A stretch of 64,000 nt of DNA from Deltaproteobacteria bacterium (lineage in GTDB: Bacteria > Desulfobacterota > Desulfomonilia > UBA1062). Where the stretch lies: the NCBI GenBank assembly GCA_029547185.1, contig JAKPPU010000001.1:124001-188000 (forward strand), in the 5' to 3' direction. The notes beneath the pieces were generated by a model. That model searched no databases, was not told the origin of the DNA, and saw only the letters and a program-made list of their open reading frames with translations. The stretch's first letter is position 1. Each line of letters opens with the position of its first letter. Shown in pieces: positions 20,294 to 52,725 of the stretch. The translations under genes were made by a program, and so were the position numbers.

Positions 20294-20310
20294 ATTATGA
20301 GGGCAAGTTC

Positions 20311-20511
20311 GGTGGAGAGGGAGACGGGGTAATCCTTCCTTCACCGGAATCACTTGTTTGTTTGCATCCTGTTGTGTGCCTTTAAGGGCGGCCCCGTAAA
20401 CTCGCTTAAGCTTCGCTGCGCTCAGACAGTACGGGGCCAAGCGCCCTCCAGGCTTCCCCCTGAATGCAAATCAAAAAGCGCTTAACGGTTCATCCAGGAT
20501 TCACCCAGTCT
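20311..20511 (+). repeat. structured intergenic repeat, copy A
   Basis: About 200 bases match 52376-52577 with shared blocks such as GTAAACTCGC, GCTCAGACAGTACGGGG and ACGGTTCATCCAGGAT. GGCCCCGT (20390-20397) pairs perfectly with ACGGGGCC (20431-20438), enclosing an AGC-TTC-GCT hairpin (20409-20417). In copy B the equivalent stems carry different but still pairing bases. AAGCGC and GCGCTT form a third stem. It occupies much of the gene-free 20294-20812. Confidence 0.75.
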
Positions 20512-20579
20512 CCCATGGACATACTCCTCATGTGAATTCTATCCATAAATCCTTGTATTACTCTACCTTTATATAAACC

Positions 20580-20812
20580 GGTGAAATTTCGGGTTGCAAT
20601 GAGCCGGTGTGGATGGTACGGGAGGGCGTGCCTTGCTGGAAGGGCTTCCAGCCTCCCGGCTTCGGCTGCGTGCCGGTCGGCAGGCGACAGCGAAGACATT
20701 CCAAATCTTGAAAAGGCCGATCACCGAGGATGGGTACTGCCGGGTTCGTGGACGCCCGCTCATTCCTCATCGATTAACCTGTATCAATCGACAACAGCAA
20801 GAGGAGCATACC
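20580..20812 (+). promoter_or_regulatory. structured leader of the first secreted paralogue
   Basis: This stretch is homologous to 21780-22006 and both lie directly before paralogous genes. It begins GAAATTTCGGGTTGCAATG in both. A bulged stem GAGGATGGG/CTCATTCCTC (20726-20734 with 20759-20768) is conserved, with a wobble pair replacing a Watson-Crick pair of the second copy. A perfect 8-base stem GCTGGAAG/CTTCCAGC lies upstream. No known riboswitch signature was recognised. It ends with the AGAGGAG ribosome-binding site. Confidence 0.45.
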
Positions 20813-21650: not shown

Positions 21651-21779
21651 AAGGGCGTCCATACTCTCTTTTCTTGCCGTCCGGTGCACAGACAGCGCCT
21701 TATCCCCGGACTGGGGCCAAGGTCTTGATCGGGATTTCATTCATAACCCCTGGCATTGTCCTGCCTTGCGCTGAACGGA

Positions 21780-22006
21780 GAAATTTCGGGTTGCAATGGG
21801 CCGGCTTGAGTGGTACGGGGTGGGCGTGCCTTGGTGGAAGGGTCTTTCAGGCCTCGCCGTGCCTGCTGCGAGCCGATCGGCGGAGGCTGTCCGACCTTCC
21901 GAATCTTGAAGAGGCAAAGTCGTCGAGGATGAGCACTACCGGGTTTGTGGAAACCCGCTCATTCCTCTTTGAGAAAACCTGTACAAAGCAATAAGAGGAG
22001 CACAAA
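21780..22006 (+). promoter_or_regulatory. structured leader of the second secreted paralogue
   Basis: This is the counterpart of 20580-20812. The clearest element is an inner hairpin CGGGTTT/AAACCCG (21940-21946 with 21951-21957) enclosed by GAGGATGAG/CTCATTCCTC (21925-21933 with 21958-21967, one bulged T). Conservation between copies is strong at both ends and weaker in the middle. It ends with AGAGGAG before ATG 22007. Confidence 0.45.
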
Positions 22007-52346: not shown

Positions 52347-52375
52347 GCGGATATTAATGGCAGCAGAACACACGT

Positions 52376-52577
52376 GTCGGAGGAGGGGAGCCGGGGGCAA
52401 TCCTCCCTTCACCCGAATCGCCTTTTGAAGCATCCGCGTCCTGCGTCTTCGGCCGACCCAGTAAACTCGCCTCACTTCGTGATGCTCAGACAGTACGGGG
52501 TCAAGAGGCCTTAAGCCTTCGGTCGGGCTGCTTTAGCAAAAGGCGCTTGACGGTTCATCCAGGATCATCCGCAGCTC
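52376..52577 (+). repeat. structured intergenic repeat, copy B
   Basis: This copy matches 20311-20511. GACCCAGT (52455-52462) pairs with ACGGGGTC (52495-52502) with one mismatch, and the inner hairpin is TCAC-TTC-GTGA (52472-52482). Both stems differ from copy A in paired positions. It has the same orientation and lies in the gene-free 52347-52725, after the HtpX-like gene and before livK. Confidence 0.75.
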
Positions 52578-52725
52578 CCTTAGGCACGCTCAACAAGTGT
52601 GGGACCTGGGCGACAGGTTCGGGGTATTAAATTGACGGGGATGCCGTTTAGTGATAACTCAGGGTCAACCGCCGGACTTAACGGCTTCTTCGGAAGCGAT
52701 ACACTACATACGTTAGGGGGAGTAA

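Follow-up and report, generated by a model that had tools for sequence, protein, structure and literature searches.

The palindromic repeats of the ERIC, Correia and similar families are intergenic, dispersed and about 100–200 bp long, and each of them is known from single groups of bacteria. The attC sites of integrons are single-strand hairpins in which the stem sequence is free and certain unpaired bases are meaningful; they carry AAC/GTT boxes and lie in cassette arrays. The skipping-rope RNA (RF02924) has a long stem and occurs in several phyla. Short mobile DNA elements without coding content are commonly classified by their ends; in the repeat described here, the hairpin tip is the conserved part. 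This repeat is probably a mobile DNA element, non-coding and folding back on itself, that behaves like a MITE, and its distinctive features are a hairpin spanning the whole length of the unit, covarying stems, and a tip shared by units with different ends. No published description of the element was recognised in the open-licence literature covered, and it may be in print elsewhere.

Two copies, A and B, are present in the window, which is the whole stretch of 64,000 nucleotides that was analysed. Their parts are as follows.

20304..20534, + strand: copy A, fold-back repeat unit, starting 14 bases past the stop codon of the upstream gene's ORF
20319..20330 (+ strand, 5' arm) and 20503-20514 (3' arm): copy A, outer stem, an inverted repeat that is 92% complementary
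20390..20398 (+ strand, 5' arm GGCCCCGTA) and 20430-20438 (3' arm TACGGGGCC): copy A, apical stem, a perfect inverted repeat
20398..20405, + strand: copy A, 5' half of the tip motif, AAACTCGC, a pattern match with the letters checked
20420..20429, + strand: copy A, 3' half of the tip motif, GCTCAGACAG, a pattern match with the letters checked
52370..52599, + strand: copy B, fold-back repeat unit, placed by alignment with copy A
52463..52470, + strand: copy B, 5' half of the tip motif, AAACTCGC, a pattern match with the letters checked
52484..52493, + strand: copy B, 3' half of the tip motif, GCTCAGACAG, a pattern match with the letters checked

The two units were aligned on the same strand over 20304-20534 and 52370-52599 (Smith-Waterman), with 74% identity in the part recovered by BLAST, confirming the approximately 200 bases that a sequence-only reading of the window had found at two places in the same orientation. 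The apical stem which that reading proposed for copy A proved to be a perfect inverted repeat, and the tip hairpins AGC-TTC-GCT (A) and TCAC-TTC-GTGA (B) were as it described them. Its account of the second apical pair held in so far as the pair is A-T in copy B (apical arms GACCCAGTA/TACGGGGTC), but the change between the copies is not purely a paired one, as an uncompensated A (52460), absent from that reading, faces G (52497) in the same stem. The outer stem of copy A corresponds to helix 1 of the 32-copy alignment described below, where it covaries, and the apical stem to helix 4, with 97.2% of cells paired. Folded as single-stranded DNA, copy A was better than 200 of 200 shuffles (z −4.13); the fold of copy B alone was not better than its shuffles (z −0.90). 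Elsewhere in the window, a 42-bp stretch at 20579-20620 is repeated at 21776-21817 with 86% identity, each time upstream of a gene. The proteins encoded after the two stretches are 76% identical to each other, and the gene was thus duplicated jointly with its upstream region.

The window's genome (G000; 4.19 Mb in 215 contigs, 96% complete) contained 40 BLAST matches to the repeat at E ≤ 0.01, some of them fragments of a single copy, and the core pattern AAACTCGCN{3,30}GCTCARACAG occurred in it 29 times, in agreement with the dispersed intergenic element that had been proposed. The unit is non-coding and measures ~230 bp, and the copies occupy unrelated spacers. When 41 genomes were searched with the whole unit at E ≤ 0.001, matches were found in six, all of the same genus (the window's own and five of seven congeners), and in none of the 33 genomes outside it. 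An alignment was made of 32 copies that retain the core and the flank on either side, and RNAalifold gave a structure in which nearly the entire unit forms one long imperfect hairpin with covarying stems. Changes on both sides were present at 26 of 42 pairs (180 cells versus 57.4 in shuffles), and covariation was 0.372, compared with 0.150 in the shuffled alignment and 0.053–0.099 with slid partners. Paired bases occupied 93.9% of cells, versus 81.4% in shuffles and 34.7–49.7% with slid partners, a comparison in which the structure is favoured over its slid versions, having been derived from this same alignment. The paired base changes first noticed between two copies were thus borne out statistically over 32. 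Most changes were Watson-Crick on both sides (180 cells, versus about 30 that were one-sided), and the tip hairpin was replaced block-wise between copies.

As had been stated for the two copies, the repeat matches no known RNA family in Rfam. Nothing scored above the cut-offs in the window or at 12 loci with copies or relatives, and 20 loci with relatives gave no match at E up to 1. One search returned a single match at chance level, and a set of 18 loci in other phyla matched nothing but tRNAs and one TwoAYGGAY, all away from the motif. The skipping-rope RNA was considered and rejected: none of the 6 genomes searched had a match above its cut-off, and at a loose limit equally weak matches appeared in 13 of 14 control genomes. 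Two truncated copies (the first at L013, and L019) stop at the hairpin tip and abut the apparent start of another unit, as though the tip were a site of breakage or insertion. To the right of the unit at six loci (L005, L011, L016, L018, L024 and L027) lies a short repeat, GTCATTCCCGC...GCGGGAATCC or a variant of it, which we take to resemble a REP.

Within the phylum, 39 of 395 genomes carried the core pattern, the highest copy number being 212; the reversed pattern occurred once each in two. Two of the other genomes, G349 and the one-contig genome G197, contain recent families. The G349 unit is 241 bp long with the ends GTAACTATTCAGCC...GGCTGAATAGTTAC, and IS66 units in G197 terminate in these ends too. 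Of the 22 G349 copies readable at both ends, 15 are flanked by exact target duplications of 8 bp. The IS66 units themselves show 8-bp duplications, by eye, in the three units with both ends. The repeat in G197, present at 42 non-mirror places, has different ends, CTCAACTTTCGACTTTCAT and its complement, which form clear terminal repeats, and its flanks share at least 6 bp in 12 of 18 copies (null 12%), or 7–8 bp by eye. The terminal inverted repeats and the 7–8-bp duplications in these genomes indicate that a transposase acting on the ends moved the units there, IS66-type in one of the two. The tip AAACTCGC...GCTCARACAG is common to the units of the window's genome, G349 and G197, and as the ends of the G349 and G197 units differ, the same tip occurs in units with unrelated ends. 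Units also occur as inverted pairs, at C14 60485-61014 and C17 15249-15598 in the congener G003 and at C29 13948-14409 in the window's genome.

Insertion was most readily seen at copy B. In four congeners the genes flanking it are adjacent, at one locus each in G003, G004 and G005 and at two in G006, and these five spacers are 150–182 bp long and carry no trace of the element, compared with 382 bp in the window's genome, 230 of which are element. The corresponding locus in G001 is uninformative, with the contig region stopping before the downstream gene. The element was likewise absent from the orthologous spacer of copy A in all six congeners that keep the gene order, although the length of that spacer (522 bp, versus 322–467 bp in congeners) does not permit a clean insertion to be read. 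The flanks of 19 copies in the window's genome share no word of at least 6 bases (0 of 19; null 3.5%). The outer arms of these units pair, but the last bases differ and the ends are too unlike for a terminal repeat. The ends matched none of the transposons tested, and neither an IS66 nor a Y1 transposase was found in this 96% complete genome.

Placement relative to genes was counted from ORF-based gene calls. Copies of the recent families face either way relative to genes and also occupy divergent spacers, with same-strand to opposite-strand tandem counts of 11:7 (1 convergent, 6 divergent) in G197 and 4:9 (3 convergent, 8 divergent) in G349. The old families are rarer in divergent spacers, with 13:5 (14 convergent, 5 divergent) in the window's genus and 36:22 (28 convergent, 9 divergent) in a diverse set, and their tandem copies lean to the same strand (p = 0.096 and p = 0.087, respectively). 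This placement fits insertion followed by loss where it was harmful. The gene to the left was on the element's strand in 27 of 37 copies of the own family; with a cruder gene call the proportion was 24 of 32 in the genus (9 copies inside ORF calls dropped) and 42 of 66 in the diverse set (leaving out 12 inside ORFs and 30 at edges).

Selection on a fold in single-stranded RNA should make G-T mismatches commoner than A-C mismatches, or the reverse if the other strand were the RNA. At consensus Watson-Crick pairs, the G-T and A-C counts were 17 and 28 in G349, 35 and 53 in G197, 82 and 49 in the own family, 33 and 29 in G003, and 119 and 110 in Clostridium, or 286 and 269 when the five families were summed; a tRNA control for these counts yielded one usable tRNA. 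Across phyla, the inner eight pairs comprised 17 G-T, 27 A-C and 556 Watson-Crick cells. There is no common strand bias in the wobbles, although the G-T lean of the own family speaks for RNA there. Among copies less than 5% apart, changed pairs that were Watson-Crick on both sides made up 1% of 1241 cells in G349, 3% of 115 in G197 and 0 of 13 in G003; among copies 20–30% apart they made up 28% of 2241 cells in the own family, 37% of 9488 in Clostridium and 14% of 56 in G003.

Stems changed more slowly than unpaired positions in the two recent families (0.0127 versus 0.0372, and 0.0311 versus 0.0634). Among the 30 best-scoring copies of each, which were fetched by BLAST with the motif not required, the motif was changed in 2 of 540 cells in both G349 and G197, other unpaired positions in 60 of 1673 and 75 of 1303, and stems in 54 of 4884 and 120 of 5056, respectively. 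Changes private to one copy were nearly even, at rates of 0.0037 and 0.0037 in the motif, 0.0066 and 0.0107 in stems, and 0.012 and 0.010 at unpaired positions; the motif differences were non-significant, and stems differed from unpaired positions with p = 0.04 in G349. Variants shared by several copies were found at 0 of 18 motif sites in each family, and their per-site frequency was lower in stems than at unpaired positions. The pattern, from small numbers, is as expected if constraint acts on the multiplying lineage and not on settled copies.

The tip motif is also found outside the phylum. When one genome per species was scanned, at least 119 public stretches with the motif were obtained, against about 50 chance matches estimated by hand for the whole collection. 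By record title, the matches listed belong to Bacillota, Bacteroidota, Fusobacteriota, Nitrospirota, Pseudomonadota, Desulfobacterota, Gastranaerophilales and others, and seven viral contigs also match. With two contig-edge sites set aside and the viral ones included, 108 of the 129 listed sites assessed had at least 7 of 8 flanking positions complementary, versus 6.4% with flanks swapped between sites. All 24 genomes reached via these loci, each selected for having a motif match, carried between 1 and 71 copies of the pattern, and none had it reversed. After removal of look-alikes, 86 of 128 sites were retained, with the motif bases fixed by the search and pairing not a criterion; 83.0% of their cells pair (50.4% shuffled, 33–48% slid), and covariation was 0.756 (0.173 shuffled). 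At E up to 5, the only stretches of the window found by a model of these sites, one row of which (L242) comes from a congener, were copies A (42.9 bits) and B (35.8 bits).

No neighbouring protein was shared around 108 sites, the largest cluster comprising 9 loci and being ABC ATPase-like by eye. In Clostridium peptidivorans (G420, L322-L332), 13 pairs of core matches, the first on the + and the second on the − strand, lie 278–552 bp apart. Between the Clostridium inverted pairs, coding content was not found at 17 of 18 loci, where the longest stop-free stretch was at most 68 codons, and L335 has one of 116 codons. A search of plasmids and phages with a Bacteroides unit gave one partial match, to a Bacteroides plasmid, and the same search with a Clostridium unit gave no match. 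The AT-rich genome of another Clostridium sp. (G443; L340, L341, L376-L395) has 22 near-identical copies in which, apart from the tip motif and a short AACGG/GATCC stretch close to it, nearly every base is A or T. At L221, from a Ralstonia sp., tandem hairpin units lie ~105 bp apart, one of them followed by a run of N.

Selection on structure in RNA or single-stranded DNA had been proposed from the two copies. A single-stranded DNA element fits best, and RNA as the selected form is unsupported, given that G-T is not commoner than A-C over five families, that the spacer is empty in congeners and that the relatives are MITEs. A structured RNA useful to the host, such as a 3' end element or a small RNA present in many copies, would account for the strong covariation, in the 32 copies as in the 86 sites, for the frequent position after a same-strand gene (27 of 37) and for the own family's G-T lean. 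We nevertheless regard it as decidedly unlikely, as the copies are not kept in orthologous spacers, wobbles are few beside the two-sided Watson-Crick changes (about 30 one-sided cells versus 180), no strand bias runs through all families, a scan limited to consensus sequences found no promoter- or terminator-like site at copy A, and the relatives in G349 and G197 are MITEs. Nor is it at all likely that the element is mobile DNA whose hairpin acts for it as RNA, for example in transcription read-through or in shielding a message: the same-strand tandem excess of the old families (13:5 and 36:22) would agree with this, but the recent families have no orientation bias (11:7 and 4:9) and wobbles show no overall excess.

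The paired changes might instead have arisen by copying from arm to arm during replication (template switching), with no selection on the fold. This is an unlikely account, though one to be taken seriously: wobble intermediates are almost absent and the tip hairpin is swapped in blocks between copies, but stems evolve more slowly than unpaired positions in the recent families, and the fixed motif, which is not palindromic, is left unexplained. Template switching could also operate together with the mobile-DNA reading. There remains the REP or REPIN moved by a RAYT (Y1) transposase, which the palindromic, intergenic, many-copy and sometimes inverted-pair character of the repeat recalls. A Y1 transposase gene was looked for and not found in the window's genome, the motif was missing from the 1.5 kb around each of 30 Y1 loci fetched from other genomes, and the relatives have target duplications of 7–8 bp; this origin has very little probability.

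The reading that we prefer, a fold-back mobile DNA element working like a MITE, has evidence against it in the 0 of 19 target duplications and the 82 to 49 G-T lean of the own family, and both this lean and the 13:5 neighbour-strand lean are predicted by an RNA. The dissimilar ends of the own units, which match none of the tested transposons, the failure to find an IS66 or Y1 transposase in the genome, and the spacer lengths at copy A also count against it. The units of G349 and G197 were moved by a transposase acting on their ends, of IS66-type in one case, and under the mobile-element reading those of the window's genome would have spread in the same general way by some enzyme, long enough ago for target duplications to have faded. 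The hairpin and tip motif would be important when the element multiplies as DNA, and perhaps a protein binds the fold in a single or extruded strand; shared variants avoid the motif and are less frequent in stems, and private mutations are nearly even. We further propose, tentatively and with the balance somewhat against it, that one old superfamily of fold-back DNA spans several phyla, is defined by an invariant tip read by a widespread bacterial factor, and has repeatedly acquired the ends of different transposons. If true, general bacterial machinery recognises the fold. RNA-like covariation in a DNA element is also a caution for RNA discovery based on covariation.

Like MITEs, including those of IS66-type, the element is short and non-coding with many dispersed copies, and the G349 family further resembles IS66-type MITEs in the terminal repeat GTAACTATTCAGCC of IS66 units and in 8-bp target duplications. 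Full MITE membership is not claimed for the family in the window's genome, because its copies, in contrast to MITEs, showed no target duplication and its ends match no transposon tested. With REPs and REPINs (see PMC3116915) it has in common palindromic intergenic repeats and a structure kept in mobile sequence; it differs in its much greater length, in its motif, and in that no link to RAYT was found. Compared with attC sites, judged by eye, its tip motif is without AAC/GTT boxes and its copies are dispersed and not in cassette arrays. It differs from ERIC and Correia repeats in a tip motif that spans phyla, and from MITEs in that the whole unit folds to a fixed-motif tip, common to unrelated ends and found across phyla.
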